DNA of 48,223 nt from Rhodospirillaceae bacterium (GTDB taxonomy: Bacteria > Pseudomonadota > Alphaproteobacteria > Thalassobaculales > Thalassobaculaceae): assembly GCA_002722775.1 (NCBI GenBank), contig PBMU01000004.1, positions 1-48,223 of the forward strand. The letters run 5' to 3'. Positions 8,001-48,223 of this stretch are shown one piece after another. Below the pieces are notes generated by a model. That model had not been told where the DNA came from. It saw nothing but the letters and a program-made list of their open reading frames with translations, and did no database searches. Both the position numbers and the translations under genes were made by a program. Positions within the stretch are counted from its first letter, which is position 1, and the number at the start of each line of letters is the position of its first letter.

Positions 8001-11000
8001 ATGGCTTATGACCTGACATTGATTCCTCTTAATGCTGCGTTGCCGTTTGATTATAATAATGCACGGCCTCAGCTACAAGAGTTATGGACTAAGACTGCTC
8101 TGCTGAGGGAGACTACTGCCAAGGCATTGGAGGAACTGGATGCGCAGATTCAGCAAGATATTGGTACTGCCATTGCAGGTCTGCGGCAGGACCTAGACAC
8201 ACTAGAGGGAGAGTATGATGCTTATGTTATTGCGAATGACCAAGCACTAGCAGCCCTTTCTACGAGTGTAGATTCACGATTCCAGACTAGCAATGGACGC
8301 CTTGATGCCGCCGAGACTAGATTGGATAGTGCAGAAGGACGTCTAGATGTTGTGGAGCCACTGCTTGGTACTGTGAACACACGCAGTAATACCAATCTGC
8401 AGAGCATCAATACCATCAATCAGACACTGACAACTCACACAGGTCTACTGTCTGGGCTTCGCAGTGATGTGGATACTAATACTGGTGATATCAGTACGCT
8501 GAATGGTCAGGTAGCCAACATAATCAATACCAGTATCCCAGGCATCAATGGTCAGCTCGCAGGACTGCGTACTGATACGGATGCTAATACCAGTGACCTA
8601 GGCAACCTCAACACCGTAGTACTACCAGGCCTACAGCAGGACTTAGTAGATTTGAATAACGACCTAATAGTCTTGGATGGTGACCTTGATACGCTCAACA
8701 CTGTCACGTTGCCCGGACTTCAGCAGGATTTGCAGACTCTTGATACTACTTTGCAGGGAGTAGATGATGATTTAGACGCTGCAGAGCTTATACTGGCAGG
8801 GTTGAATGATGACCTTACTAACCTGAACACTGTAATATTACCACAAGTCCAACAAGACTTACAGGACGCTGAGGATGATATAGCATACCTCAACGGTACT
8901 ACATTGCCACAGGTGCAGCAAGACTTGTCAGATGCACAGGCAGATATTAGTACTCTTAATACTGTCACACTGCCACAAGTACAGCAGGACCTGCAAGACG
9001 CAGAAGATGACATAGCGACCCTTAATAATACTACATTACCTGCTGTCAATAGTAGACTTGATACTGTTGAATCGGACCTGAATACATTAAATACTGTCAC
9101 ATTGCCTGACCTAGCAGATGACTTGCAACTTGTAGATGATGCAGTAGTAGATATCAATACCAACACTATTCCAGCAGTACAGTTGGCTGTTGATACTGTG
9201 GAGCAGGAGCTGGATGCAGTACAAGGTTTGTTCCCTGTAGAGGCTGTTAATATTGCCCCTAAAGCGATTACTACTGCTAAAATTGCTGATGGAGCAGTTA
9301 ATGCGCTACAGGTGGCCACAGGTGCAATAGAGGCCAACGGTCTAGCAGAAGGCGCAGTAACATCGGTTAAGATAGCCCTAAACGCGGTTACTAATGATGC
9401 TATTGCAGACGGAGCAGTGGGTACAGGGCAACTGGCATCCGGAGCAGTAACAGCAGGACAGTTGGCTTCTAGTGCAGTGACTGCTGCCAAGCTTGCGACT
9501 AATTCTGTAATTACCAGTAAGATTGCAGAGAATGCTATCACTAGCGCACTTATTGCTACTAATGCTGTGACTAATGATGCTATTGCAGACGGTGCAGTAG
9601 GAGCTTCACAGATAATAGCAAATGCTGTAGGAACAGCGGCTCTGGCCAATGGAGCTGTGAATGCTTCAATATTAGCCAATGATGCCGTAACTGCTGCTAA
9701 AATTGCAGACGCTGCTATAGAGGCAGACAAGATAGCGTTAGGCGCAGTCACGGAAACTAAGATTTCTAACGGTGCTATTACTACTCCTAAGATTGTAGCA
9801 GGTGCTATCACAACAGGTCTTATTTCTGCAGGTGCAGTTACCACTAGTCTTATCGCATCAGAAGCTATTACGTCAGGACTAATCGCCAGTAATGCTGTGA
9901 TATCAGACCATATTCTGTCAGGAGCAATAACTGCTGGTAAAATTGGAGCAGACGCCGTAACAGCAGTAAACATTGCTGCAAATGCAGTAGAGGCGGGTGC
10001 TATTAAAGCTGGTGCGGTCACAGCGAATGCTATAGCTACCAATGCAGTAACATCGAATAAGATAACTGCCAACGCAGTGACTTCTGCGAAGATTATAGCT
10101 AATGCTATTACTGCTGGCAAGATTGCTACTAACGCAGTAACTGCAGGTAAGATTGATGCGGGTGCTGTAAGTACTGCCAATCTTCAAGCCTTGGCTATTA
10201 CGTCGGAAAAAATAGCGGCAGGTGCTGTGAGCGCTGGTAAAATTGCTGCACGTTCTATTGCTGCGGACCGTATAGCCACGAACGCCCTGACTGCCAACGA
10301 GATTGCGTCTAATGCTATTACTGCTAATGAACTGGCTGCTAATTCTGTCAGCGCAGATAAGATTACCTCCAATGCTATTACAAGTGCCAAGATAGCGGCA
10401 GAGGCAATAACTGCGGGTAAGATAGCAGCGAATGCAGTAGGTGCCAATGAGATAGCAGCGAATACCATATCAGCAGGTCATATAACAAGTGACGCTGTTA
10501 CTGCAGATAAGCTTGCTGCCAACTCTGTAAGTGCAGACAACATAGTAGCTAACTCTATCACAGGGTCTAAGCTAGTAGCGGAGACTATTACTGGAGCTCA
10601 TATCGCAGCTAATGCTGTTAGCACTGGACATTTAACAGCTAATTCTGTAGGAGCCGACCAGCTTGCGGCCAACTCTATAACGGCAGGGAAGATAGTAGCA
10701 GGGACAATTACTGGTAATGAATTAGCGTTCCGTTCCATCGGAGCAGATAGAATAGTAGCCAACTCTATCGGAGCTGATGAAATTGCAGCTAATTCTATTG
10801 GGGCAGGCCAAATAGTGGCGAACTCTATAGGGGCAGGACAGATTGCAGCTAATAGTATTGGTGCGGGACAGATAGTAGCAAACTCCATTGGCACAGGCCA
10901 GCTAGCAGCTAATAGTGTAGGAACTGACCAACTAGTGGCTAACTCTATCACTGCAGGTTTCTTGGCTATCAGAGACTTTGAGAACTTTGCCGCTGGCAGT

Positions 11001-12167
11001 GACTTTGCAGACCCTAATGACCAACCATGGACAGGACTATCAGCAGCTAATGCATCTATTGGATATGATGCTAATGTAGCCCAGAATGTACTGATTTGTT
11101 ATCCTGTAAGTCCTTATAATAAGCGCCGTATATATCTCAACAATGATATGGCAGTGCAGACAGGAGATAAAATACGTATCGAGTTCGATTACTGGGCCTC
11201 TAGTGACTACAATGGTACTGCTGGTAGCGGTAAATTCAGAATAGGGGACGCCTTAGATAATGAGGCCTTTGTAACTGCCTTTGCCTTTACTGCTGGCGGA
11301 GGCTGGAAGAATGAGAGTCATATCATCACAGCAGCACTCACTACTAGATTCGTATTTCAACTATGGGTAGACCACTCTGTAGGAACACTGGTAATTACTA
11401 ATATCCGTATCCGTAAGATGAAGGATGCTAATCTGATTGTAGATGGGGCTATTAGTGCTAGCAAACTTACTGCTGATGCTGTGGATGGTAAGCTAATACA
11501 GGGTGCTACACTACGCGGTGGTAAGGTAGAGATAATAGGAAGTATTATGATTGTGCAGAATAGTACTCCTTTTGGGCCTGACTCACTAATAGAGTGGAAA
11601 GGTCCTGCTATTCTTACTGGAGGGGCCCCCAACTATGGCGCTCTTACTAAGGCTAATGCTACTATATCATGGTTGGACAACGCGGGAAATTCTTACTTCG
11701 GAGGGAATCTCTCGGCAGGAATCTTACGAAATGCGGCACGCTCTACTAGCAAAGCTCTTAACGTATCTGTGGAGGCTGGCCCTTTCTCTACCAATGGTGG
11801 CAGTAAAACTGTTGTATGGGGATGTGTATGGGCAGGCTACTACAGTGATTCCACGTCAGGGTCAGATAGTACAAGTACAGTAGCTGGAGGTACAGTAACC
11901 TTGTATCGCAGACTGAATGGTGGTTCTAGAGTTCAGCTAGATACAAAGAATATTAATACTACTCTAACTACTACAGTAATCCAAGACCCTGAAGTAGGAA
12001 CTACAAAGACTTTGTATGAGGATGGAGGTGCTACATTTACATTCACAGATACTAATACTAGTACGCAGGACTTCACGTACGAAGTAGAAGTTACTAACCA
12101 GTTTAGACATCTAGCATTACAGTTTATTACTGGTCAAACTACCACAGTTATATCAACCGAGGAATAA
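8001..12167 (+). CDS. Long tail fibre with coiled-coil and 57 decapeptide repeats (1388 aa)
   Basis: Coiled-coil N-terminus, ~22-aa repeats, then (A/S)(V/I)TAGKIAAN-type decapeptides, then a beta-rich C-terminus. Confidence 0.8.
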   Translation: MAYDLTLIPLNAALPFDYNNARPQLQELWTKTALLRETTAKALEELDAQIQQDIGTAIAGLRQDLDTLEGEYDAYVIANDQALAALSTSVDSRFQTSNGRLDAAETRLDSAEGRLDVVEPLLGTVNTRSNTNLQSINTINQTLTTHTGLLSGLRSDVDTNTGDISTLNGQVANIINTSIPGINGQLAGLRTDTDANTSDLGNLNTVVLPGLQQDLVDLNNDLIVLDGDLDTLNTVTLPGLQQDLQTLDTTLQGVDDDLDAAELILAGLNDDLTNLNTVILPQVQQDLQDAEDDIAYLNGTTLPQVQQDLSDAQADISTLNTVTLPQVQQDLQDAEDDIATLNNTTLPAVNSRLDTVESDLNTLNTVTLPDLADDLQLVDDAVVDINTNTIPAVQLAVDTVEQELDAVQGLFPVEAVNIAPKAITTAKIADGAVNALQVATGAIEANGLAEGAVTSVKIALNAVTNDAIADGAVGTGQLASGAVTAGQLASSAVTAAKLATNSVITSKIAENAITSALIATNAVTNDAIADGAVGASQIIANAVGTAALANGAVNASILANDAVTAAKIADAAIEADKIALGAVTETKISNGAITTPKIVAGAITTGLISAGAVTTSLIASEAITSGLIASNAVISDHILSGAITAGKIGADAVTAVNIAANAVEAGAIKAGAVTANAIATNAVTSNKITANAVTSAKIIANAITAGKIATNAVTAGKIDAGAVSTANLQALAITSEKIAAGAVSAGKIAARSIAADRIATNALTANEIASNAITANELAANSVSADKITSNAITSAKIAAEAITAGKIAANAVGANEIAANTISAGHITSDAVTADKLAANSVSADNIVANSITGSKLVAETITGAHIAANAVSTGHLTANSVGADQLAANSITAGKIVAGTITGNELAFRSIGADRIVANSIGADEIAANSIGAGQIVANSIGAGQIAANSIGAGQIVANSIGTGQLAANSVGTDQLVANSITAGFLAIRDFENFAAGSDFADPNDQPWTGLSAANASIGYDANVAQNVLICYPVSPYNKRRIYLNNDMAVQTGDKIRIEFDYWASSDYNGTAGSGKFRIGDALDNEAFVTAFAFTAGGGWKNESHIITAALTTRFVFQLWVDHSVGTLVITNIRIRKMKDANLIVDGAISASKLTADAVDGKLIQGATLRGGKVEIIGSIMIVQNSTPFGPDSLIEWKGPAILTGGAPNYGALTKANATISWLDNAGNSYFGGNLSAGILRNAARSTSKALNVSVEAGPFSTNGGSKTVVWGCVWAGYYSDSTSGSDSTSTVAGGTVTLYRRLNGGSRVQLDTKNINTTLTTTVIQDPEVGTTKTLYEDGGATFTFTDTNTSTQDFTYEVEVTNQFRHLALQFITGQTTTVISTEE
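8607..9153 (+). repeat. ~22-aa coiled-coil repeats in the fibre (LNTVTLPQVQQDLQDAEDDIAT)
   Basis: Consecutive LN(T/G/N)(V/T)(T/I)LP... units spaced 22 aa over the last five copies; earlier units longer. Confidence 0.8.
9264..10973 (+). repeat. 57 tandem 10-aa (30-bp) degenerate repeats in the fibre
   Basis: From AITTAKIADG to SITAGFLAIR, counted by hand as 57 units with no indels (570 aa = 1710 bp). Confidence 0.9.
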
Positions 12168-28501: not shown

Positions 28502-29368
28502 CTATTTCCCGTACAGTTTACACATATCACGGGCCATAGTATCCAGAGTAGTAACGTCGATGGTGTGGTTGCCTCTAGTACCTGCTAGTACTTTGGCGTC
28601 ACCGGTGGTCGTCGATACTACCATGTGTTTCTTATTACGGATATGGGAGTAGAGCGCGTTGTTAAAGTAGCGGGGTATCTTTCTACTAAAGTCATACGTA
28701 CCGCCACTAGGAACAATCTTACTAGAAGCATCTTCCATTTTACCCATTTGCTCGTGGGAGATAACTACAGTATTATATTGTGCGCCCTGCATATAGTCAA
28801 GAAACTTCTCAAGGTATCGCCCCTGACTACGCCAGTGTTTGAACTCTTCGAATTCATCCTTACCCATATCCAGTTTACGAGTAGCAAGAGCATTAGCACT
28901 ACTAGCAAGCTGAGTAAAGCTATCCCATACTACTACCCATTCATTAGGGTCCAGACTATTCAGTGTCCACTCGTTGATAATACCATTAGTGAACTCACCA
29001 GCTTTGATAGCAGGCACTTCCTTATTCAATTCTCTGCACTCTGCGCACGCAGGAGTAATAGCAGGCTTATTCATAAGGATACCATGCGCGTCACACATCT
29101 GAGCTTTAGTACCATTGGCAAGGAACATAGCACTATTAACAAAGTTATAGTTGTCCTTATTATCATACACCGGCTGCACATAGATATTGCGTAACCATGC
29201 TGGTGGTAGGTTGGCTAATAGTGACCGGCCATTCTCACCGTCGATGTACAGTACCTTGAACTTAGATGCCAGTGACAGTGCTAGTGTTGTCTTACCTGTC
29301 AGTGAGGCACCATATATAATGGTAGACTGCGCACTAGATTGCTTTGCTACGACTGTGGCCTGTGGCAT
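28502..29368 (-). CDS. RecA-like/AAA ATPase, Sak4-like (288 aa)
   Basis: Walker A 'IIYGASLTGKTTLALSLAS', 'VLYIDGENG', 'WVVVWDSFTQLA', 'VISHEQMGK'. Confidence 0.75.
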   Translation of the reverse strand: MPQATVVAKQSSAQSTIIYGASLTGKTTLALSLASKFKVLYIDGENGRSLLANLPPAWLRNIYVQPVYDNKDNYNFVNSAMFLANGTKAQMCDAHGILMNKPAITPACAECRELNKEVPAIKAGEFTNGIINEWTLNSLDPNEWVVVWDSFTQLASSANALATRKLDMGKDEFEEFKHWRSQGRYLEKFLDYMQGAQYNTVVISHEQMGKMEDASSKIVPSGGTYDFSRKIPRYFNNALYSHIRNKKHMVVSTTTGDAKVLAGTRGNHTIDVTTLDTMARDMCKLYGK

Positions 29369-33356: not shown

Positions 33357-33808
33357 TACTTGTTTCCTTTTTTGTTGGTTGTTACCTTAGCGCTACCTGC
33401 TACCTTAGCGGTTTTGCTTGCGTCGTACTGTGCTAGTGTTACCTGTACTATCCCATGCACAGTCTTAATGGTAATAAGCTGGCTCAAGTGCAAGCCATAG
33501 TTAGCACCATTCTGCACTGGAAGTCGTCGCTCTGCTGATAGGTGGGAACAGAACTTATCCAAGTTTAGGGGTGTTACTGCTAGTGGCTCCTTCTGCTGGC
33601 CAATGGCCTGTTCCATCTTAGGGATAGCAAACAAGTACCGCAGTACTAGCTCTTCCAGTTGTGCCTTAGTGAGCTTGCCTGCCTGTACTAATCCGGATAG
33701 TACTTCCAAGTCACCAAATAGTACTTCTCGTTGTTCTTCCAGTGTCAGGTCTGTTAGTACTTCTGCAGGGTCCTTGCGTTGTACTTCATTGTCATTACTA
33801 GTAGTCAT
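33356..33808 (-). CDS. Hypothetical protein (150 aa, start MTTSND)
   Basis: Co-directional ORF overlapping the helicase 3' end. Confidence 0.5.
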   Translation of the reverse strand: MTTSNDNEVQRKDPAEVLTDLTLEEQREVLFGDLEVLSGLVQAGKLTKAQLEELVLRYLFAIPKMEQAIGQQKEPLAVTPLNLDKFCSHLSAERRLPVQNGANYGLHLSQLITIKTVHGIVQVTLAQYDASKTAKVAGSAKVTTNKKGNK

Positions 33809-36068
33809 TATAGCCTCCAAGTTCTTTCTGTAGTTTCTTTGCGTCTAAGTAGCCGCTGTCTCGTAGTGATACAAAGCGGCGATGAATATTACTATCGGGG
33901 TCTTTCGCAGCCTTAATATAGGCTAGTGCTTTCTTGCGGAAGTGATTAAGTTTCTCTGCTAGTGTGTCTCCTTTTATCTTCTGATTAACAAGGCATTTGT
34001 GTAGCATACTATACTTGTTATCAATGTATTTACCAGTATAGTTACCACTGTACATAACCTCTAAGTGGTGACGCGCACGAGTAACACCAGTATAGAATGT
34101 CTCTCGTTGTGCTGCCACGCTGTGACTATGATGCAGGATTAGTAGTACACTAGGGAATTCAGAACCCTGTGACTTGTGTACTGTTAGTGCATACATAGGT
34201 AGTAGTGTTCCGATAGCATTGGTGGATAACTTCACTTCCATTCCATCACCAACGGGAGTTAGTACTACAGTATGACTAGCTTGGTTACTAGTCTCTTCAT
34301 CTTCCGTCGCCGCATACTCCTGTGCCATTAGTTCTTCCAGCTCCATATCATCTACTTCTGCTTCATGCTGTTCATCACTAATACCAAACACCTCTTCACG
34401 ATGGCCCTTCTTAGCTTGGCCCCATCTAGTAAGATACGGGGATGCTTCTAGTGGCTTAGGTCCACGGTACTTATCATTCTTGTAGATGTCAGTAATATGG
34501 TATGGTAGTTTGTTATGTAGTACTCTATCGCCTATAGACCAGTATGTCTTACCAAAGCGGGTTATTACTTCGAATACTGGTAGGTTATCCCTGTCACTAA
34601 TACCCTGCATAATGTACTTATTCAGTTCGATGGTGCCAAAGGCTTTATTGAATGGTATTAGTACCTGTGTTTCCTCTGGGTCAAATCGGTAATCCATTAT
34701 ACGCTTCTGGAGCAGTAGGCCAGTATTCTTAAGTGCTACTTCTGGCGTCCAGTTCTTAACATAGCGTGTGAACTTGATACTATCCTCGCCCTCAGTTCTA
34801 CTGAGTTTCTGTGCTTCATCATCCTTAATGGGCTTGCCTGTTAGTATCCGATGAGCCAATTGAGTAATGATACCAACGTTACGATATACTTCTGTTAGTT
34901 CTATTACTGGTAACTCTAGCTGTTTGAATCCTAGTATACCATCATTGAATGGTGGCGGTAACTGGTTCAAGTCGCCGAGGAATATCCACTGTGTATTACT
35001 ATCCATTGGTAGTGCAGATTCTAGACACTCATACAAGTCCAGTAGTACACTACCCGCTTCCTCTACCACTATCAGGTCGAATGCAGGTAGTATCTGTCCA
35101 CCAGCTTCTCGCCATGCAGTACCATAAGTAGGCGCGAATATCTGACTAGTCCGCACACCAGTAACCTGAGTATCATCTTCTATCTCTGCTTCTACTGGCA
35201 CGAATTCTAGTAGATTATGTAGAGTAGTAGCATTACATTTCAGCTCTTCCTGTAGTGCCTCAGTAATGTTACGAATAGCTTGATTGGTGAATGATACTAT
35301 TGCTACTCGTAGTTTACCTTCCTTCACAAACTTCTTGGTATATTCACCACTCTCGAACTTACCTAGTCTACCACTATCGAGGAGTGCTTTTAGTATGCAC
35401 TTCACAGTAGTAGTCTTACCAGAACCTGCAGCACCTATTAGTACGAATGACTCACCTGCTACTGCTAGTTGTACTGCTGCTTTCTGCTCAGTATTCAAGT
35501 GTTCGAATGTTACTTGGTCTTTATTGAGCTGTGGTGCTACCTTAGCGGTTGTGTCTACTGGTGCTGGTGGCGGCGCTGGTGCTACCTTAGCGGTAGTAGT
35601 TGTGCTAGGTCCAGACTTATCACTGCCATTACGAGTAGGACTAGTAAACACTGGGCGACGAACACTAGTACTCGGCCTATCTTGCGTAGTCTGCGTTTGC
35701 GCTGGTACTGTTTTCGCTGGCGTAGTGCTGCCAATCTTAGAGAAGCGTGCTCTGAGACGTTGTGCCGCGTCACTAGCAGTAGACTTATTAAGCTTAGTAG
35801 CAGTCTCATTGGTAGACTCCTTTGTTATGCCATTATTAAGCAGGTTAGTAGAAACGCTAGTGTTGCTGCTAGGCTTATTGTCACTATCAGCAGTGTTGGT
35901 GATAGCTTCCACATCTCTGCTATTGTTAGCCATAGGTTGTGCATTAGTAGTCTCCTTAGACTCAGTTGCTGGTGGTGTTGGTGCCAGTAGTGATGCACCA
36001 GCTTTAGCCTCTTGTAGTGCTAGTGCTTTCTTTCTCTTTAGTTCTGCTATACGTTTCGCAAGACTCAT
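33798..36068 (-). CDS. SF1 (RecD/Dda-like) helicase with low-complexity N-terminus
   Basis: Walker A 'VLIGAAGSGKTTTVK'; 'DLIVVEEAGSV'; 'IFLGDLNQLPP'; 'YALTVHKSQGSEFPSVLLIL'; 'YTGVTRARHHL'. Confidence 0.9.
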   Translation of the reverse strand: MSLAKRIAELKRKKALALQEAKAGASLLAPTPPATESKETTNAQPMANNSRDVEAITNTADSDNKPSSNTSVSTNLLNNGITKESTNETATKLNKSTASDAAQRLRARFSKIGSTTPAKTVPAQTQTTQDRPSTSVRRPVFTSPTRNGSDKSGPSTTTTAKVAPAPPPAPVDTTAKVAPQLNKDQVTFEHLNTEQKAAVQLAVAGESFVLIGAAGSGKTTTVKCILKALLDSGRLGKFESGEYTKKFVKEGKLRVAIVSFTNQAIRNITEALQEELKCNATTLHNLLEFVPVEAEIEDDTQVTGVRTSQIFAPTYGTAWREAGGQILPAFDLIVVEEAGSVLLDLYECLESALPMDSNTQWIFLGDLNQLPPPFNDGILGFKQLELPVIELTEVYRNVGIITQLAHRILTGKPIKDDEAQKLSRTEGEDSIKFTRYVKNWTPEVALKNTGLLLQKRIMDYRFDPEETQVLIPFNKAFGTIELNKYIMQGISDRDNLPVFEVITRFGKTYWSIGDRVLHNKLPYHITDIYKNDKYRGPKPLEASPYLTRWGQAKKGHREEVFGISDEQHEAEVDDMELEELMAQEYAATEDEETSNQASHTVVLTPVGDGMEVKLSTNAIGTLLPMYALTVHKSQGSEFPSVLLILHHSHSVAAQRETFYTGVTRARHHLEVMYSGNYTGKYIDNKYSMLHKCLVNQKIKGDTLAEKLNHFRKKALAYIKAAKDPDSNIHRRFVSLRDSGYLDAKKLQKELGGYNDY

Positions 36069-36079
36069 AACAGTACCCC

Positions 36080-37204
36080 TTATAGTTCGAATTTATATTT
36101 ACGCATATAAAGCCTAGTCATACTAGAATCAGGATGCGCTTTACAGAATGCTAGTGCTTTAGCTTTAGCCTCTTCCTGCTGCTCAGGTGTCTTGGCTTGT
36201 AGAGTAGTAGTGACTTTGGTTTTAGTCTCATACTCGAATACAGCAGCCTTATTAGCACTAATTTCATCATCTAGGTCTATGAATCCAAAGTCTGCTTCAT
36301 AATCCAGTAGTCGTTCTAGTTTAGATTCTAGACTACGCACCACTACTAGACTATTCTCACGCTCATAATCTTCATAAGTCAGTCCATCTTTTACTAGTGC
36401 TATTACTTCCCGCAAGTCCTTCTCGCGTAAGTCAGTGGCAGCAGTATCCATGCAATGACGTATCTTTGCTAGTTGTCTGCTAGAGTAGCCTGAGCGAGCT
36501 GTTAGTACTTTCATAGCCCATCCATTCAGTAGCTTCTTATTAGCCATATCTCTAGTAGTACGCAGACGGTACTCTTTGAAGCGTGCTACTAGTGAGCGCT
36601 CGTCGTCGGCCTTGTCGTATGTTGCATCAATATCCGCATCATCAAAGGCATCTAGCAGTTTGCTGGTAATAGTAGAGTACCGGCCTGACTCTAGCATCTT
36701 GATGTAGCCGTGTAGAGTATCCTTTAATCTTTTATCTGTTAATGGATTCTCTGCGTTATTAACAATAGTAGGTAGGTTAATGCGCTCTAACTGGTCTGCG
36801 CCAGTACTAATGATTAGTCCAATGAATTCACGTATAGCATCCTTAACGTCAGTAATACCACGGTCAGTAATGTCAGTAATAGGACAGTGGCACTCCAGCA
36901 AGTCGTAGTCATTCAGTATGGCCAGTAGTACAAGATACAATTCATTATTGAATTTTACGTCATAGTAGATGTCTAGTATTTGACGTCGTGGCATAGAGAA
37001 TATGGGATGGATGTCTGGTACTAGTACATGCCCTTTCTCAGTTCGAAGGAACATGCTAGATATTGCCAGCTTGACGCCACTAACACGACAATACGTCACT
37101 ACTGCCGTTGTTTGATGCAAGTTAGCATCGCGTGTTATGTTGGCTCCTATGACTGGCTGGTATTTTGTGCTAGTGGTGCGAGCATTGCGAGACTTGGTAT
37201 TCAT
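36080..37204 (-). CDS. Hypothetical protein (374 aa)
   Basis: Long intact ORF. Confidence 0.55.
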   Translation of the reverse strand: MNTKSRNARTTSTKYQPVIGANITRDANLHQTTAVVTYCRVSGVKLAISSMFLRTEKGHVLVPDIHPIFSMPRRQILDIYYDVKFNNELYLVLLAILNDYDLLECHCPITDITDRGITDVKDAIREFIGLIISTGADQLERINLPTIVNNAENPLTDKRLKDTLHGYIKMLESGRYSTITSKLLDAFDDADIDATYDKADDERSLVARFKEYRLRTTRDMANKKLLNGWAMKVLTARSGYSSRQLAKIRHCMDTAATDLREKDLREVIALVKDGLTYEDYERENSLVVVRSLESKLERLLDYEADFGFIDLDDEISANKAAVFEYETKTKVTTTLQAKTPEQQEEAKAKALAFCKAHPDSSMTRLYMRKYKFEL

Positions 37205-37438: not shown

Positions 37439-37762
37439 CTATAGTGACTCTATCATTTTATTAGTATGATTACGTATTACTTCTGTTAGTGCTTCATTAA
37501 GTCCGATTACTATTCTCTTATCAGTAACAGTATTTACTAGATGAAACCTACGAGTACCATTATTAAAGCGCGGTACTATATCTACTAGTTGCCATTCAGT
37601 GTCAGCAGTGAACATGCATAGTGTTCCGTCATGTGGAATACCTTGCATAGATGTTAGTTCTAGTGTGCCTTTAATGTCATAGTGAGCATAGTACTTATTA
37701 ATATAAGTAGTAACAGATTCAAAGTGTAGTGGAAATGTAACCTTAGAAGTAGCAGTATTCAT
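37439..37762 (-). CDS. Hypothetical protein (107 aa, start MNTATSKVTF)
   Basis: In-frame ATG at 37762; the ORF track version runs into the promoter/repeat region. Confidence 0.5.
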   Translation of the reverse strand: MNTATSKVTFPLHFESVTTYINKYYAHYDIKGTLELTSMQGIPHDGTLCMFTADTEWQLVDIVPRFNNGTRRFHLVNTVTDKRIVIGLNEALTEVIRNHTNKMIESL

Positions 37763-37873
37763 AGCAGTAATAATCCTAGTAGTAATAGTCGTAATAGTGA
37801 CAATAGTAGCTGGTAGCCAGTAAGCAAGAATCATGCCAACATGCGTAATCCTTTGGACTTCCGACCAACTAGC

Positions 37874-37902
37874 ATTATCCCATATATAGCTAGACAGGTC
37901 AA
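37874..37902 (-). promoter_or_regulatory. Sigma70-like promoter for the leftward replication operon
   Basis: Minus strand TTGACC-N17-GATAAT, ~105 nt upstream of ATG 37762. Confidence 0.7.
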
Positions 37903-37919
37903 TATAATAATATAAGCGT

Positions 37920-37947
37920 AGGGATGCTACCTGAGGCACACTAGCAA
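37920..37947. repeat. Left arm of a perfect 28-bp inverted repeat
   Basis: AGGGATGCTACCTGAGGCACACTAGCAA; reverse complement at 38451-38478. Confidence 0.95.
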
Positions 37948-38013
37948 TACCAGTCATGCGAGGATACGCAAGGTACTATGAGGCACTAGAGGAATCGGGG
38001 TACTCCCATACCA

Positions 38014-38041
38014 TACATCATAGCACCCTACATCATAGCAC
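38014..38041. repeat. 13-bp direct repeat x2 (tacatcatagcac)
   Basis: Copies at 38014-38026 and 38029-38041. Confidence 0.85.
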
Positions 38042-38168
38042 TGGCTAGTACCATACTACCACCAGCTAGTACTATCGGAATGCATACCTACCACCAGCAA
38101 ACCCTAGCAGTAGCACAAGATAGCGCAATAGCAGTAAAACTATGTATCTTCTATGTTGTATATTATAG

Positions 38169-38214
38169 ACCCCCCTATTCAAATTTTATTTCTTTTTTCC
38201 TATACCCCCCTATT
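38169..38214. repeat. 11-bp direct repeat x2 (acccccctatt) flanking an AT-rich tract
   Basis: Copies at 38169-38179 and 38204-38214. Confidence 0.85.
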
Positions 38215-38243
38215 ACTATACCAGTACGGTACTATACCAGTAC
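38214..38243. repeat. 14-bp direct repeat x2 (tactataccagtac), 16-bp period
   Basis: Copies at 38214-38227 and 38230-38243. Confidence 0.85.
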
Positions 38244-38450
38244 ACAGTAGGTAGCTAGTGACTACCGGAATGCATGGCTATTGGATGAATGGGCGAGTAG
38301 TAGGCATAGTGGCATAGTGGCATGATGTGGTAATAGTGGGCATAGGTAGTAGCATAGTAGTAGTATATGGATATATGTGGGATGGTATGTAGGTAGGCAG
38401 GGGGGTGCCCAATTTCCTTGCGTGCATCGCGTGATTGACGTTACTTCTAG

Positions 38451-38478
38451 TTGCTAGTGTGCCTCAGGTAGCATCCCT
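38451..38478. repeat. Right arm of the 28-bp inverted repeat
   Basis: TTGCTAGTGTGCCTCAGGTAGCATCCCT, exact reverse complement of 37920-37947. Confidence 0.95.
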
Positions 38479-38662
38479 GCCAGCATACCAGTACACACCA
38501 CCAGCATCTCACCAGCAAGCACGCCACCAGCACGCCACCAGCACTCCCTGTAGAACGTCTGAGCATCATTATGACTATAGATAGTGGTAGTATGGTATAG
38601 GGTAGTAGTAGATAGAGCCACCAGCACCCGCATAGAGCGTCCTAGTAGCATCATTGGCAGTA

Positions 38663-38718
38663 GCCACCAGCATATAGCATAGTGGTAGTAGCCACCAGCA
38701 TATAGCATAGTGGTAGTA
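38663..38718. repeat. Perfect 28-bp tandem duplication (gccaccagcatatagcatagtggtagta x2)
   Basis: 38663-38690 and 38691-38718 identical. Confidence 0.9.
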
Positions 38719-38727
38719 GGTCAGGAC

Positions 38728-38786
38728 TAGTGGTAGTGGTAGTGGTAGTGGTAGTGGTAGTGGTAGTGGTAGTGGTAGTGGTAGTG
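38728..38786. repeat. Hexanucleotide array (TAGTGG), about 9.8 copies
   Basis: Uninterrupted tagtgg units over 59 bp. Confidence 0.95.
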
Positions 38787-38829
38787 TGAGGTAGTGGTAG
38801 TGGCAGAGTAGCCACCAGCAGGCAGGCAC

Positions 38830-38857
38830 AAAAAAGCCCCACACTAGGCAGGGCTTG
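38830..38857 (-). terminator. Intrinsic terminator after the 38877-39563 gene
   Basis: Minus strand AAGCCC-tgcctagtgtg-GGGCTTTTTTG. Confidence 0.85.
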
Positions 38858-38876
38858 TAGTAGGACTGGCGACCTG

Positions 38877-39937: not shown

Positions 39938-39966
39938 TTGACCCGCCACCGCCGCCGCCCTATAAT
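39938..39966 (+). promoter_or_regulatory. Strong sigma70-like promoter for the rightward block
   Basis: TTGACC-N17-TATAAT upstream of the GTG start at 40016 (SD gaggag 40005-40010). Confidence 0.75.
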
Positions 39967-40015: not shown

Positions 40016-40555
40016 GTGGACCGTAATACTAAGATAGTAGTAGAGCTGCTTTCCAAGTCCAGCCTGCGCCCAGTAGATATAGCAGATATGTTTGATGTTA
40101 GTGAGTCTGCCATTGCTAATATTGCATCACAGTACTCTACTGAGATTGCTAATGCTAAGGCTACTAAATCTGTCACTGATATGGCTATGGATGCACGACT
40201 GGAGAATCTGGAAGCTACACTACTGAATCAGATTGAGGCCAAGGCACCCTTTGAGACGGATTTGCGAGTACTAGCAGGACTGTACAAAGTAATCAATGGT
40301 GCTACTCGTCGTGTAGAGAAACAACAAGGACCTGCTACTGCTACTGCCAGCATAGTACTGAATCAACGCTTTGTGCAGAATAATATTACATTCTCCAAAG
40401 ATAGTGCTGGCAGGGTAGTGCAGGTCGCCGATAATAAGCTACAGACTGCTAGTGCTGACCATGTACGTGAAATGGCATCACAGCTATTACTGGAAGCGGA
40501 TACAACAACTACTGTTACCCCTGATGAGGAGATTGACGAAAGTGATTTCAACTAA
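40016..40555 (+). CDS. Terminase small subunit candidate (179 aa)
   Basis: HTH-like N-terminus 'SLRPVDIADMFDVSESAIANIASQY'; close upstream of the large terminase; ends DEEIDESDFN. Confidence 0.65.
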   Translation: MDRNTKIVVELLSKSSLRPVDIADMFDVSESAIANIASQYSTEIANAKATKSVTDMAMDARLENLEATLLNQIEAKAPFETDLRVLAGLYKVINGATRRVEKQQGPATATASIVLNQRFVQNNITFSKDSAGRVVQVADNKLQTASADHVREMASQLLLEADTTTTVTPDEEIDESDFN

Positions 40556-40736: not shown

Positions 40737-42302
40737 ATGCAAAACCTAGTAGAACAGTATTCTAATGCTGAAAGAGTGGTAACAGTACATTCTCAAGAGA
40801 TAATCGAGCAGATGAAAATCGACTTGAATACTTTTGCTAATGTACTGTTGCCCGAAGAATTTACTGCTGACTTCTCAAATGAACACGTACTAATGTGGAC
40901 ATTAATGATAGAGTCAGTAGAGAAGGATTACATAGATGAATCTATCTTTGATAAGTTTGCACTAGGCTTACCACGGGGCCATGCTAAGACTACACTACTC
41001 AAACTACTAGTAGTATACATCATACTATTCACCAAACGCCGATTCGTCCTAGTAATGTGCAGCACTGCTCGCAAGGCGCAGGCATTTGTAGAAGACGTTA
41101 TACTGCTACTGGATAGTCCCAACGTAATAGCACTATTTGGACAGTGGGATGCAGACGCCCTTAAGAGTAATGCTGAGATTCGCAAGTTCCAGTTCTGTGG
41201 CCGCCGCATCATACTCAAGCCTAGTGGTACTGGCGGTTCTGTTCGTGGTATCAGTGAGGACTTCCAGCGCCCAGACGTCATGATACTAGATGACATACAG
41301 GAGAAGGAAGACGCCGAATCTGAAGAACTAGCAGAGAAGTTACTAGACTGGTTCCTGTCTACACTACTGAAGGCCCGTAATCTGCGGCGCTGCTCAGTGA
41401 TATATCTAGGTAATATGTATCGTGACTTAGAGATTGGACGTACTGGTAGTGGTATCTATGCCTGTATACTGCGTAACTTGGAGAAGAATCCAGAATGGAC
41501 TAGTATGATAGTAGGTGCCATACTAGCCAATGGTAAGGCACTGTGGGAAGCAGTAGTTAGTAAGAAGTCACTACTATCAGACTTGAATCAGGATACTAAG
41601 CTAGGCAAAGAGGACATATTCTTCGCAGAGTCTATGAATGACCCTAGTGTTAAGACTAGTATGTACTGGAATCCTAGTAAGATACCAGATGTAGCCTATA
41701 CTCCCTATGATATAGTAATAGGTAAGTATCTAGTAATAGACCCGTCACTAGGTAAGAAGAAGAGTGATGACCAGACAGTGTGTGAGTACCACGTCTATGA
41801 CGAGACTGGTCCAGTAATGGTAGAGGCCCGAGTAATACAGAAGTCTGCTCCTCAACTAGTAAAGGAAGTACTACTATGGGCCATGACTAAGCGTATACCA
41901 GTAATAGCAGTAGAGTCTGTGGCATACCAAGGGACACTAGTACAATGGATAGAGCACTTCACCTATGAGCTTGGTATTAAAGGTGTGGATGTAATACCAG
42001 TAACTCCCAAGGGATTTAGTAAGACATCACGGATACTAGCCTACATGAAGTCACTAATGACAGGATTCAGTAAGGCATTACCAGCACCATTAGCATTAGT
42101 ATCCCATCAGGCCTCCTTCTACAAGCCTACTAGAACTGACAATGTGGACGATTTACTAGATAATGGTGCGTACGGAGAGCAAGTATTCCTAGATCACGCC
42201 AATGAGTATCTACTACCATTAGAGTCAGACTTTGAAGAAGTGGAAGACCCTAATAGGCCTAAGCATCCAGCAATACTACCAGACGTTCGCGTTCCAGATT
42301 AG
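40737..42302 (+). CDS. Terminase large subunit (521 aa)
   Basis: Walker A 'GLPRGHAKTTLLK', Walker B 'VMILDDIQEKED', nuclease-like 'YLVIDPSLGKKKSDD'. Confidence 0.85.
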   Translation: MQNLVEQYSNAERVVTVHSQEIIEQMKIDLNTFANVLLPEEFTADFSNEHVLMWTLMIESVEKDYIDESIFDKFALGLPRGHAKTTLLKLLVVYIILFTKRRFVLVMCSTARKAQAFVEDVILLLDSPNVIALFGQWDADALKSNAEIRKFQFCGRRIILKPSGTGGSVRGISEDFQRPDVMILDDIQEKEDAESEELAEKLLDWFLSTLLKARNLRRCSVIYLGNMYRDLEIGRTGSGIYACILRNLEKNPEWTSMIVGAILANGKALWEAVVSKKSLLSDLNQDTKLGKEDIFFAESMNDPSVKTSMYWNPSKIPDVAYTPYDIVIGKYLVIDPSLGKKKSDDQTVCEYHVYDETGPVMVEARVIQKSAPQLVKEVLLWAMTKRIPVIAVESVAYQGTLVQWIEHFTYELGIKGVDVIPVTPKGFSKTSRILAYMKSLMTGFSKALPAPLALVSHQASFYKPTRTDNVDDLLDNGAYGEQVFLDHANEYLLPLESDFEEVEDPNRPKHPAILPDVRVPD

Positions 42303-42322: not shown

Positions 42323-44188
42323 ATGGCTACTACAGCTGCTACCAAATTATCCAAGGTTTCCCAGAGACTACTAGTGTCCTATATCAATAACCGCTTCCTA
42401 GAGTTCCCAATGGAGAATACTAGAACGCGGCTTGAAGCTATTGATAAGGCTATTCAGCTAGAGTCTGACAAGCGTAAGAAGGTCCGTAAGGAAATGAAGA
42501 AGGACTTCTACCAGGACACAGAGATTGCTACTGTTCGTTCGCCTGTTAGTAAGCTGGCTAACTTCCTTATTGATATGTTCGCTGGTCCTAAGATGTTCGA
42601 GAGTGTTAGTAATACTCGTGGCAATGAAGAACAGGTGAAGCAGCAGAACGCTGTTATTGATGAGAATAGTGCTGCCTCTAACTGGACACGGGAAATGATA
42701 CTGTACTTCCGTGATATTGCTAAGTACCCATATGCTGCTATTAGCTGTAACTGGGAACGTGAAGCCACTATGTCAGTACTGTCTGATAATACAGACCCTG
42801 ATGCTACTGCTGCTGGTGCCGCCGTTAAGACAGTAGAGCGTGAAGGTAATGTGCTACGACGGAAGGACCCATACAATTCTTTCTACGATACGTCAGTACC
42901 ACTAAACGAAGTTCACTCTAAGGGTGAATTCAGTGGTGAGATTATGCGTATGTCACAAGTAGCACTATACAAGCTAATACAGAACTTGCAGCTTGGTGAT
43001 GATACTGTGATGAACGAAGAGCATGTATGGGGCAAAGCCAGTACTAGTGGTAAGCACTATCGCCGGCCGGATGTACTACCAGAACATGATAAGGAAGAGC
43101 AGAATCTTGGCTGGGGTAATGGATTTTTCCGCGAACTGGGCATTAATGATAGTATGCAAATGAAGAAGCTAGAAAAGCTGAATCAAGGAGCACGCTATGA
43201 AGTAGTACGCTTCAATGCACGTATCATACCATCAATGTTCAACATGAAAGTACCAGCAGAGAACGATGTTCAAATCTGGCAGATATACATGGTGAACTGG
43301 GATACTATCATCTATGCCAAGCGACTAGCGAATGCTCACTCCTATCTACCAGACATCTACACTCAAGTACTGGAAGATGGTCTTGGCGAGCAGACTAAGT
43401 CCTATGCAGAACTAGTGATACCAATGCAGAATGTTAGTACTGCTATCATGGACTGTCACTTAGCCTCTATGAAGCGCTCACTGGATGACAGGGCACTATT
43501 CGACTCTGCTCGTATTAAGCGTACGGACATTGATGGTACTAATCCATCTGCTAAAATAGCAGTACGCACCAACATGGCAAAGCCCGGTCTTAGCGATGCC
43601 TATCTACCAATACCATTCCGTGACGACAACGGCGCTACCAGGCTCAACACAATGGCAGTACTGGCAAACTTAGCCAACGAAGCAGTAGGATTCAATCGTC
43701 CTCAGCAGGGCCAGTTCCAGAAGGGTAATAAGACTCTGGGCGAGTTCAATGAAGTAATGAATAATGCTGACGACGACCTGCGTACTATCGCTAAGCTAGT
43801 GCACGGTGTGGCAATGGTACCACTGAAGCATATGATTAAGACTAATATCATTCAGTACCAGCCAGTAACCACTGTCGTCGACCGTAACGGTGAGCGTATT
43901 GATGTTAACCCTGCTACTATCCGTAGAGCTGCAATGCAATTCAAACTAGCAGACGGCCTCACTGATAAGGACCAGATTCTGGACCTGCCTACTGCTAATA
44001 CTATGCTGAACCTAGTAATGCAGATTCCAGCGCTACAGCAGCGGTATGACGTAGTAGGACTAATCAACTACATATTCAGTAGTGTTGGTTTCGATACCTC
44101 ACAATTTGATAATGGCGGCCAAGGTGGTAATACTCCGGGAGCTGCTGGACAACCACCAACTGGAGGCGCAAATGCACCACAACAGTAA
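42323..44188 (+). CDS. Portal protein (621 aa)
   Basis: Size and position between TerL and scaffold/MCP; G/Q-rich C-terminus. Confidence 0.7.
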   Translation: MATTAATKLSKVSQRLLVSYINNRFLEFPMENTRTRLEAIDKAIQLESDKRKKVRKEMKKDFYQDTEIATVRSPVSKLANFLIDMFAGPKMFESVSNTRGNEEQVKQQNAVIDENSAASNWTREMILYFRDIAKYPYAAISCNWEREATMSVLSDNTDPDATAAGAAVKTVEREGNVLRRKDPYNSFYDTSVPLNEVHSKGEFSGEIMRMSQVALYKLIQNLQLGDDTVMNEEHVWGKASTSGKHYRRPDVLPEHDKEEQNLGWGNGFFRELGINDSMQMKKLEKLNQGARYEVVRFNARIIPSMFNMKVPAENDVQIWQIYMVNWDTIIYAKRLANAHSYLPDIYTQVLEDGLGEQTKSYAELVIPMQNVSTAIMDCHLASMKRSLDDRALFDSARIKRTDIDGTNPSAKIAVRTNMAKPGLSDAYLPIPFRDDNGATRLNTMAVLANLANEAVGFNRPQQGQFQKGNKTLGEFNEVMNNADDDLRTIAKLVHGVAMVPLKHMIKTNIIQYQPVTTVVDRNGERIDVNPATIRRAAMQFKLADGLTDKDQILDLPTANTMLNLVMQIPALQQRYDVVGLINYIFSSVGFDTSQFDNGGQGGNTPGAAGQPPTGGANAPQQ

Positions 44189-45313: not shown

Positions 45314-46522
45314 ATGCAATTCTATAATACCAATGACTTACCAAATGACTTAGCGGAGCTCTCCTATGCTGCTAACATTGCGCGCCTTTTCCCTAATGGT
45401 GAGGCGCCTCTGTTTGCTATGAGTGGCTTAGCGCGTAAAGTCAAAGCACTGCAAACACTTCACAGCTACTGGTCTAAGACCATGCAGTTCGGTGCTATCA
45501 CTATGGGTGCCGCCGCTACTGTTGGAGCTACTACGCTGACAGTGCAGGACAGTTCTACTGTAACAGTGAATGATATCCTGCGTCACTCGAAAGCGTTTGT
45601 AGGTGGAGTGTTCACACCGCCTGAACTGTTGCTGGTAACCGGCATTACCGATGCTACTACCATTACTGTTGTGCGTGGTTTCCAAGGTACTACTGCGGCA
45701 GCTATTCCGGATACTACCAAGCTTGCTGTTATCGGTAATGCGTACGAAGAAGGTTCAGCGAAGCCACCTGCAAAATCCATCCTGCCAGTGAACCATGTGA
45801 ACTATACTCACATCTTCCGTAATGGCTGGGCACAGTCCAAAACACTAGCAGCTGTTCAGCAAATTGTTGGTGATGGTACTGTTGCAGAAAACAAACGTGA
45901 TGCCAGTAACTTCCATGCTCGTGACATTGAGCTTGCTACGTTCTTCTCACGTCGTGGCCAGTCTATCCGTAACGGTCAACCGTTACATACTATGGCAGGT
46001 CTGGAGCAACTGGTAGAAGAAAACTCGCCTACTAACATTAAGGAAGCTGGCGCTACTACCACGTTCAAGCAATTGCGTGACATGATTGACCCACTGTTCG
46101 ACACCCGTATGGACGGCTCTAGCGATAATAGTCGAGTAGCCTACTGCGGTAAAACTGCACTGAATGTTGTTAATGACATCGGTCGTCTATCAGGCGAGTA
46201 CCAGATTGTTGATGGTCAGACTAACTTCGGATTGAAGTTTAAGACTCTGGTACTACCACGCGGTACTATCCGCCTGATTGAACACCCAATCTTTAACACA
46301 TTCCCAGACTGGCAGAAGCTGATGGTAGTAGGGGAGCTATCCAGCTTTGACTTCGCTTATCTGGAAGGTCGTGATACTGAAGTAACCTATATCAACGAAG
46401 ATAAGAAGGCTACTGACGGTACTGACGCCACTGGCGGTGTTCTTACTACTGAGCTCACTATTCAGTTGAAGAACCCTCATGCCTGGGGCTTCATTCACAA
46501 CCTGCGGGATGCAGCAGCGTAA
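45314..46522 (+). CDS. Major capsid protein, SU10-like/DUF5309-type (402 aa)
   Basis: 'VNHVNYTHIFRNGWAQSKTLAAVQQIVGDGTVAENKRDASNFHARDIELATFFSRRG' and position after scaffold. Confidence 0.8.
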   Translation: MQFYNTNDLPNDLAELSYAANIARLFPNGEAPLFAMSGLARKVKALQTLHSYWSKTMQFGAITMGAAATVGATTLTVQDSSTVTVNDILRHSKAFVGGVFTPPELLLVTGITDATTITVVRGFQGTTAAAIPDTTKLAVIGNAYEEGSAKPPAKSILPVNHVNYTHIFRNGWAQSKTLAAVQQIVGDGTVAENKRDASNFHARDIELATFFSRRGQSIRNGQPLHTMAGLEQLVEENSPTNIKEAGATTTFKQLRDMIDPLFDTRMDGSSDNSRVAYCGKTALNVVNDIGRLSGEYQIVDGQTNFGLKFKTLVLPRGTIRLIEHPIFNTFPDWQKLMVVGELSSFDFAYLEGRDTEVTYINEDKKATDGTDATGGVLTTELTIQLKNPHAWGFIHNLRDAAA

Positions 46523-46579
46523 TTAGCTGTAGCAGTAGCATGTAATCCTAACACCGTGTGAGCGACAGGTGGGACCATT

Positions 46580-46613
46580 GGCTTACTAGGTTTTCGCTTA
46601 GTAAGCCTTTTTT
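46580..46613 (+). terminator. Second copy of the MCP terminator
   Basis: Same sequence as 935-968. Confidence 0.9.
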
Positions 46614-46637
46614 ATATCTATTACATCGAGGCGTTTT

Positions 46638-47243
46638 ATGACTCTTCAAGAAATGTTGGACGCACTAGTAGTGGAAACGCGCATGGAAGTTTACCGCGCA
46701 CAACTACTACGTCGCTTACAGGAAGCTATCAGAGGATTGCATAGCGCTGCACTATTTTCTCGGGATAAACGAAGTGCTATTACTGATACATCCGGATTAA
46801 CTAGTCAGAAGTTTTCTCTACCGTTTCCAGAGAACTGCACTAAGCTAGCAGTAATACGTCCAGTAGCAAGTGAAGGAGGGCCACTAACTCTGACCACTCA
46901 CAATGATTGCTATACACCAATAGAGGACGAATCATTGCTGAATGGCATAGACGGTAGTCCACTGATTGATTACTACCATGCCAAGGATACAGCAGTATAT
47001 ATCTACAGCAGTATTATACCCCCGAAGATTTTTATGAGCTGGTACCAGCTTCCTGACACTACCGATATGTCACTACAGACATGGCTAATGGAGCGTCACC
47101 CACAGGCAATCATGGACTGGGCCTTAGCGCGCTTCTGGCGTGTTAATGGTAAAGAGAATATTGCCAGTCAGATAGAGCGCACACTGTACTCTGTCGATAT
47201 ACCGAATATTATTAATACGTATGCTACAGAAGAAGAACTGTAG
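46638..47243 (+). CDS. Second copy of the putative adaptor protein
   Basis: Identical translation to 993-1598. Confidence 0.5.
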   Translation: MTLQEMLDALVVETRMEVYRAQLLRRLQEAIRGLHSAALFSRDKRSAITDTSGLTSQKFSLPFPENCTKLAVIRPVASEGGPLTLTTHNDCYTPIEDESLLNGIDGSPLIDYYHAKDTAVYIYSSIIPPKIFMSWYQLPDTTDMSLQTWLMERHPQAIMDWALARFWRVNGKENIASQIERTLYSVDIPNIINTYATEEEL

Positions 47244-47268
47244 GGTACATTACTAGGAGAACACTATC

Positions 47269-48223
47269 ATGGCCTTTGTAGTGACTGCGACATCAGAAGG
47301 TACTGTTAAGTCAGGAACGTACCATAGTATGCGAGTAGATGTTATTGACTTTGACGCTCCTATTGCTAGTGTGGCATGGGTACAGACTAGTGGTATAGCC
47401 ACTAAGATTGGAGAGCCTACGAAATCAGTAACACGTCAACGTACTCCACGCGTAGGTGAAGATTCAGTAGTGGGCTATCAGGTTACTGTTACTGATGCTC
47501 AGGGCGCCACCGCCACAGCCACTACATCTATCACTATCGAAGGTGAAGCATTCGACTCAGACAAACTGAACTTAATCAGTAAGGATTTGAATGGCGGAGT
47601 ATCACTGTGGTCGTACACCTGTATCAATACTCTGGCACAGCTTACTGCTGCAGGCTTCTGGGACTCAGCCATAGGATTGGAACCGTTTGATATTATTAAG
47701 GTGCATTGCGCTGATGGTCCTCATGAGCTACAACTGGTTGGAGGAGCAGCTCAACACATCAATAGTATACAGAATAAAGTAGCAGTAGCTACCCAAGGGC
47801 AAGGAAGAAACAGAGAATATCCCACATTACGTAAATTGGATACAAACCCCCTACTACTCCCTGCGGACCAGAGCGCAAGCTCACTAATGTGGCCCTATCT
47901 TGTAGATTTATCTGTTAGTGGCGAGGAAGGTTATGCGCTATTCTGGGCTACGGACCACTCCAACCATGTAGGCTCGGGAACATGGATGGCTACTGCTCCT
48001 ACACCCTTAGGGCCATGGAAGCATCATGGTATGGTCTTTCGAGATGATGTTACTGGAGGAGAGCAGCATGAGACTCCCAGCGTGGTATGGGATGAAGTTA
48101 ACTCACGCTGGCTGCAGTACTATCAACTTAAATTTGTTCCCGGATATATCAACCAGCTTACACTAGTAGCTACTGCTGACCGCGTTACAAATGCCGATGG
48201 CACTCCCACTACATGGACAGTTA
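47269..48223 (+). CDS. Second, truncated copy of the propeller tailspike
   Basis: Same sequence as 1624-2578; cut by window end. Confidence 0.75.
   Translation, partial: MAFVVTATSEGTVKSGTYHSMRVDVIDFDAPIASVAWVQTSGIATKIGEPTKSVTRQRTPRVGEDSVVGYQVTVTDAQGATATATTSITIEGEAFDSDKLNLISKDLNGGVSLWSYTCINTLAQLTAAGFWDSAIGLEPFDIIKVHCADGPHELQLVGGAAQHINSIQNKVAVATQGQGRNREYPTLRKLDTNPLLLPADQSASSLMWPYLVDLSVSGEEGYALFWATDHSNHVGSGTWMATAPTPLGPWKHHGMVFRDDVTGGEQHETPSVVWDEVNSRWLQYYQLKFVPGYINQLTLVATADRVTNADGTPTTWTV

Follow-up and report, generated by a model that had tools for sequence, protein, structure and literature searches.

In many replication origins several bound sites surround a core that opens easily, with a promoter nearby (PMC5043065). 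In the iteron-type theta origins of phage lambda and of the plasmids P1, RK2 and R6K, repeated initiator sites lie beside an easily melted A+T-rich region (PMC5043065), typically on one side of it. The origin of the Vibrio phage satellite PLE, associated with RepA_N, contains direct repeats with internal inverted sub-repeats as iterons, and its initiator is known (PMC7145576). Short repeat arrays also occur near a podovirus genome end, at the concatemer junction of T7, where they flank the terminal repeat. The podovirus family Fredfastierviridae is now reported to include an episomal pseudolysogen, and the Jamesmcgillvirus Shea was reported to persist as an unintegrated episome (PMC13348215). 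In the open-access papers searched, we found neither a published account of where Fredfastierviridae-type podoviruses start replication nor a mention of the family-wide architecture described below.

The locus studied here lies in a window of 48,223 bases, the whole stretch of DNA that was analysed. It resembles the lambda and plasmid origins in having repeats next to an easily melted A/T-rich stretch near a promoter. It differs from them in that matching inverted arrays lie on both sides of a central A/T core, and in that the sequence of the repeat unit varies from phage to phage. With PLE it has in common non-coding repeats as candidate origin iterons of a phage-related replicon; it differs from PLE in its pair of inverted arrays and in that neither a family nor a fold of an initiator was found among the neighbour proteins of 374 and 231 amino acids. 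At the T7 junction the inverted-repeat score was 23, equal to background, and the direct-repeat score 46, whereas the window scored 56 for inverted and 34 for direct repeats. Caulobacter phage Kuura (OQ067476), the only relative for which both measured ends and a complete record exist, has inverted GGGCAGTT/AACTGCCC arrays around the weakest duplex of its genome, likewise between the early operon and TerS, and its virion ends map to this structure (PMC9959647). Kuura differs in its distant TerL and in a 606-bp direct terminal repeat that starts within the structure. In Jamesmcgillvirus (PaMx41, PaP2, 119X), the non-coding region at the same place contains an 11-bp inverted pair GCCGAGGTAGG/CCTACCTCGGC and short repeats resembling GGTCAAGGTA besides a core-like GGGGGTTAAAAAATTCTTTATTATTAGGGGG, but it has no long perfect arms and its inverted-repeat score of 23 equals background.

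The inverted repeat and its genomic setting

The window comprises the first bases of the 119,476-base contig PBMU01000004.1, in which a 45,645-base unit is present 2.6 times, and represents 1.06 copies of a 45,645-bp podovirus genome, its final 2,578 bases (45646-48223) repeating the first ones (1-2578). This 2.6-fold phage concatemer was binned with a bacterial genome. Between the copies of the unit, 5 of 54,355 compared positions differed, and four of these differences fall in the initial 130 bases of the contig. The structural genes are read rightward from TerS (40016) and TerL (40737), the replication genes leftward, including helicase, PD-(D/E)XK exonuclease, Sak4-like protein, polymerase and primase (Table 1). 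Gene layout and TerL match those of the Pseudomonas phages PaMx41, PaP2 and 119X (Fredfastierviridae), with which the genome is syntenic, and those of Aeromonas phage P5 and Polaromonas phage Tiera, at 31-38% identity.

Table 1. Features in and around the inverted repeat (window coordinates)
Feature	Position	Strand	Remarks
Dda/RecD2-like helicase	33798..36068	-	
374-aa protein	36080..37204	-	between helicase gene and non-coding region; conserved in relatives
First gene of leftward operon	37439..37762	-	107 aa from ATG at 37762; mechanical ORF extends to 37957
Sigma-70-like early promoter, leftward	37874..37902	-	TTGACC-17-GATAAT with TG; just outside left arm
Wider imperfect inverted repeat	37884..38509		encloses both 28-mers; halves 37884-38165 and 38230-38509
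Left arm of perfect 28-bp inverted repeat	37920..37947	+	AGGGATGCTACCTGAGGCACACTAGCAA
Weakest 30-bp duplex	38137..38166		near centre; only 0.03% of genome weaker
Central core	38169..38214	+	ACCCCCCTATT, then CAAATTTTATTTCTTTTTTCCT, then ACCCCCCTATT; repeat centre 38199 inside
Right arm	38451..38478	-	exact reverse complement of AGGGATGCTACCTGAGGCACACTAGCAA
Terminator-like hairpin	38834..38856	-	of the right-hand leftward gene
Protein of about 231 aa	38877..39572	-	right flank of region in almost every relative with data; mechanical ORF extends to 39746
Small-terminase promoter	39938-39966	+	TTGACC-17-TATAAT
Small terminase (putative)	40016..40555	+	from position, helix-turn-helix resemblance and synteny
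Large terminase	40737..42302	+	comparison anchor

An initial annotation of the window had reported a perfect 28-bp inverted repeat around a non-coding segment. The exact reverse complement was reproduced, the arms being separated by 503 bp. This pair is the sole exact inverted repeat of at least 16 bp in the 45,645-bp unit, and about 1e-8 exact 28-bp pairs are expected by chance anywhere in the unit (n^2/2 x 4^-28). The abrupt end of identity on both sides, also claimed, held for exact identity, but weaker inverted similarity continues in both directions and forms the wider repeat of Table 1. Its gapped score of 174.5, the 28-mers included, was not reached by any of 200 mononucleotide shuffles (maximum 118). 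The wider repeat is rich in C in its left half and in G in its right half. The window contains this one 28-bp pair together with degenerate repeats, not clear arrays. Both complete copies of the region in the contig are 100% identical and in the same orientation, which makes a local assembly error unlikely.

The left arm overlaps the mechanical ORF 37439-37957. Because the early promoter (37902-37874) sits inside this ORF and the ATG at 37762 is the likelier start of the first leftward gene, the whole stretch 37763-38876 is probably non-coding, in agreement with the earlier view that the arms enclose no convincing gene. The terminator-like hairpin at 38834..38856 would seal the region from read-through. 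To the right of the right arm are CACCAGCA-type repeats and a 16-copy TAGTGG array (38490-38545, 38708-38803), not mirrored on the left.

Recurrence of the architecture in related phages

A comparison with related phages had been recommended in the initial annotation. A TerL alignment was used to fetch 80 viral contigs, and each usable locus was scanned for the centre that best matched 350 nt on the left with the reverse complement of 350 nt on the right. The TerL protein of the window alone gave no match in viral contigs, nor did the alignment in genome contigs. A position 1.8-4.0 kb upstream of TerL held the strongest inverted repeat of the locus in 30 of 40 cases, with 4.9 expected (P about 1e-20 if the loci are taken as independent, which related phages are not). 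Among the loci scoring at least 40, the centre fell into this interval in 19 of 21, the exceptions being L085 (4.7 kb) and phage P5 (elsewhere). Two further scans revealed many more contigs with the same feature at the same place; dozens of relatives carry the same layout with differing arm sequences. Long arms were weak or missing in about a quarter of the loci and in the PaMx41 group. At the level of DNA sequence, then, it is established that the repeat exists and is centred on the core, that a promoter-like site is present and that the architecture recurs across the family at one genomic place, with arms that change but stay inverted in each phage.

Across the related phages the arms bracket 200-600 bp. 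Within a phage they matched each other with a median of 48.5, between phages with a mean of 21; the centres had been chosen to maximise the match within a phage, and the next best score elsewhere in the locus was mostly 25-35. In many relatives the arms are arrays of short units, mostly near 8 bp, among them CCAAA, TATCCCG, AATCAT, AGACTGT, TATCCTAA, GACTAATT and ATGCCAGA. The closest relatives, L021/L112, L023 and L022, all possess the structure, with inverted 8-base units ATACCTAG in L021/L112 and GGAACGG/CCGTTCC in L023. Between L064 and L077/L096, which are close by TerL, promoter and core were kept and both arms had changed together.

The element is recognisable by its symmetry, not by its sequence, for which reason ordinary similarity searches miss it. 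An exact search for the 28-mer in IMG/VR gave no match. The DNA of the region matched phage records only over short stretches of 3-5%, in unrelated Staphylococcus phages; these matches were judged to be chance, caused by TAG-type repeats, and were rejected as homology.

Near the repeat centre the family shares an A/T element of roughly CTTTAAAATTTTA behind a C- or G-tract. The core proper of the window, TATTCAAATTTTATTT, resembles this form and also the core TATTGAAATTTTTAAT of L021/L112, the closest relative. Core match and tract side were counted separately, since the spacing between tract and core varies. The core match exceeded that of random places (mean 10.0 versus 8.5 of 13, standard deviation of the control means 0.14), and by automatic count the tract lay on one constant side of the core in 19 loci versus 2. 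The two exceptions, L064 and L083, have by eye a better core, also with the C-tract on the usual side. A seeded motif search was moderately above its controls (total 440 versus 335-401), the gain being moderate because of the variable tract-core spacing; an unseeded search settled on C/G-rich tracts, not on the core. The region was within the weakest 1.5% of the duplexes of the locus in 29 of 29 loci, and about half of these had their weakest 30-bp duplex inside it. Taken alone, low duplex stability is weak evidence for an origin, because non-coding DNA is often A/T-rich. A leftward sigma-70-like promoter matching at least 10 of 12 positions was present in the left half of the region in 17 of 29 loci, compared with 7% in controls, and a rightward one in 2 of 29. 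In some phages, e.g. at locus L067, the leftward promoter overlaps the left array.

Several relatives had peculiarities. Locus L127 shows a variant of the architecture: in place of two separate arms it has, about 1.6 kb from the homologue of the 374-aa protein, a long palindromic TTGTACAA-type array with an inverted-repeat score of 78. In phage Tiera (L016) a tandem duplication of roughly 94 bp occurs in the corresponding non-coding region (43908-44070). The record of EBPR podovirus 3 (L014) contains a pair of almost identical palindromes (9395-9446 and 29047-29103) with NotI sites, GATGCGGCCGC..., which are probably residual linkers or artefacts of assembly.

A proposed replication origin and competing interpretations

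The initial annotation had offered four functions: a replication origin, an invertible control segment, a MITE-like insertion and a partition or packaging site. The origin is the best supported of these because of the conserved position, the central stability minimum, the oriented A/T core and the adjacent early promoter. From these features of the DNA, we give about even credence to the view that the region 37.88-38.51 kb is the replication origin of the podovirus, with inverted initiator-binding arrays around an unwinding core. The arms as initiator sites, the opening of the core and the start of replication at this place are what we infer. The inverted arms (the 28-bp pair in the window, the short-unit arrays in many relatives) would be bound by an initiator that the phage encodes, probably in its leftward early operon. 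With both flanks occupied, the DNA in between would be bent or strained, and the A/T core adjoining the C/G-tract would open and take up helicase and primase. Opening could be aided by the early leftward promoter of the left half, which the same initiator could repress. Persistence of Shea is in line with an origin, because an unintegrated episome needs one. AlphaFold models of the two conserved neighbours were of low confidence (pLDDT 69 and 65), and Foldseek with these models yielded no match. The two neighbours did not diverge in step with the arms (partial correlation, P 0.15 and 0.08). GC skew, which the initial annotation had proposed for mapping replication, follows gene orientation and cannot locate an origin here; it was dropped as evidence.

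A site of genome ends or of packaging is the strongest of the competing readings, though a somewhat unlikely one. The arms would be recognised by the terminase and the DNA cut near the core, giving rise to direct terminal repeats; in phage SPP1, two pac subsites flank the cut. Such a role is suggested by Kuura, which has the same gene layout and in which the 606-bp terminal repeat determined by PhageTerm begins between core and right array, and by the terminally redundant ends that PhageTerm gives for Shea (PMC13348215). The records of PaP2, 119X and PaMx41 begin about 25 bp from the core, but these starts may have been copied from one another. Contigs L025 and L051 begin at the core; overall, 2 of 119 metagenome contig ends had a core match of at least 11 of 13, with 0.3 expected, too few to decide. 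Many near-complete IMG/VR contigs, however, pass through the core uninterrupted, as do both copies in the 2.6-unit contig of the window. The helix-turn-helix segment of TerS is nearly constant across phages with unrelated arms, and TerS and arms showed no clear co-variation (partial correlation 0.12, P 0.056; N-terminus, P 0.24). For Tiera, PhageTerm was run but ends were not reported, and the T7 junction is built of direct, not inverted, repeats. Origin and terminus roles could coexist at one site.

An explanation by early gene control alone is improbable. The arms would then be operators for a looping phage regulator that switches the leftward early promoter, with no role in replication. The enrichment of leftward promoters in the left half and their overlap with the left array in some phages fit this explanation, as does the pseudolysogeny reported for Shea (PMC13348215), since pseudolysogeny needs repression. 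The right array, however, is without a matching promoter (2 of 29 loci), the promoter of the window lies outside the arms, and an operator pair does not need a conserved, oriented A/T core of minimal duplex stability. No repressor-like gene was found among the proteins scanned.

We attach very little probability to a site-specific invertible segment with recombining arms. Perfect 28-bp arms around 503 bp suit such a segment, and recombination between the arms would explain their likeness within a genome. Against it, the core points the same way in the relatives (19 to 2), both assembled copies of the region have the same orientation and the enclosed segment has no convincing gene. No invertase or integrase was detected among a subset of about 30 proteins scanned with PHROGs, and the arms of most relatives consist of short-unit arrays, not of single recombination sites. 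A switch that inverts freely is unlikely. A MITE-like insertion or mobile-element leftover, to which inverted ends around a short non-coding stretch might point, was rejected with near certainty, as the element occurs once per phage genome in the 2.57-Mb assembly, again displayed no target-site duplication and is found at the corresponding site of dozens of relatives whose arms are unrelated.

Returning to the replication origin, these phages might represent a distinct origin class, in which two inverted arrays surround a fixed core and are rewritten in concert while core and promoter are kept, and which in Kuura-like relatives is also the genome end; we put this forward tentatively, as possible rather than probable. 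If it is true, the origin address would be replicon-specific and fast-diverging and would separate co-infecting relatives; the arms would stay identical through recombination between them or through an initiator that co-evolves, and Kuura-like relatives would couple replication start and packaging at one site. From the comparison, a precisely located site of about 0.6 kb can be put to the test in laboratory phage isolates.

Flanking genes and minor observations

The 107-aa product of the first leftward gene had no match in Pfam, the 374-aa protein none in Pfam, PHROG or PDB, and no convincing match was found for the 231-aa protein. Rfam and tRNA scans of the window were without matches. An open frame of 486 amino acids (8720-10180, minus strand) runs antisense within a gene of 1,388 amino acids (8001-12167) and is probably an effect of base composition. 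The 231-aa neighbour and the small terminase have almost identical acidic ends, ELDESDFM and EIDESDFN, which may be a common partner-binding tail.
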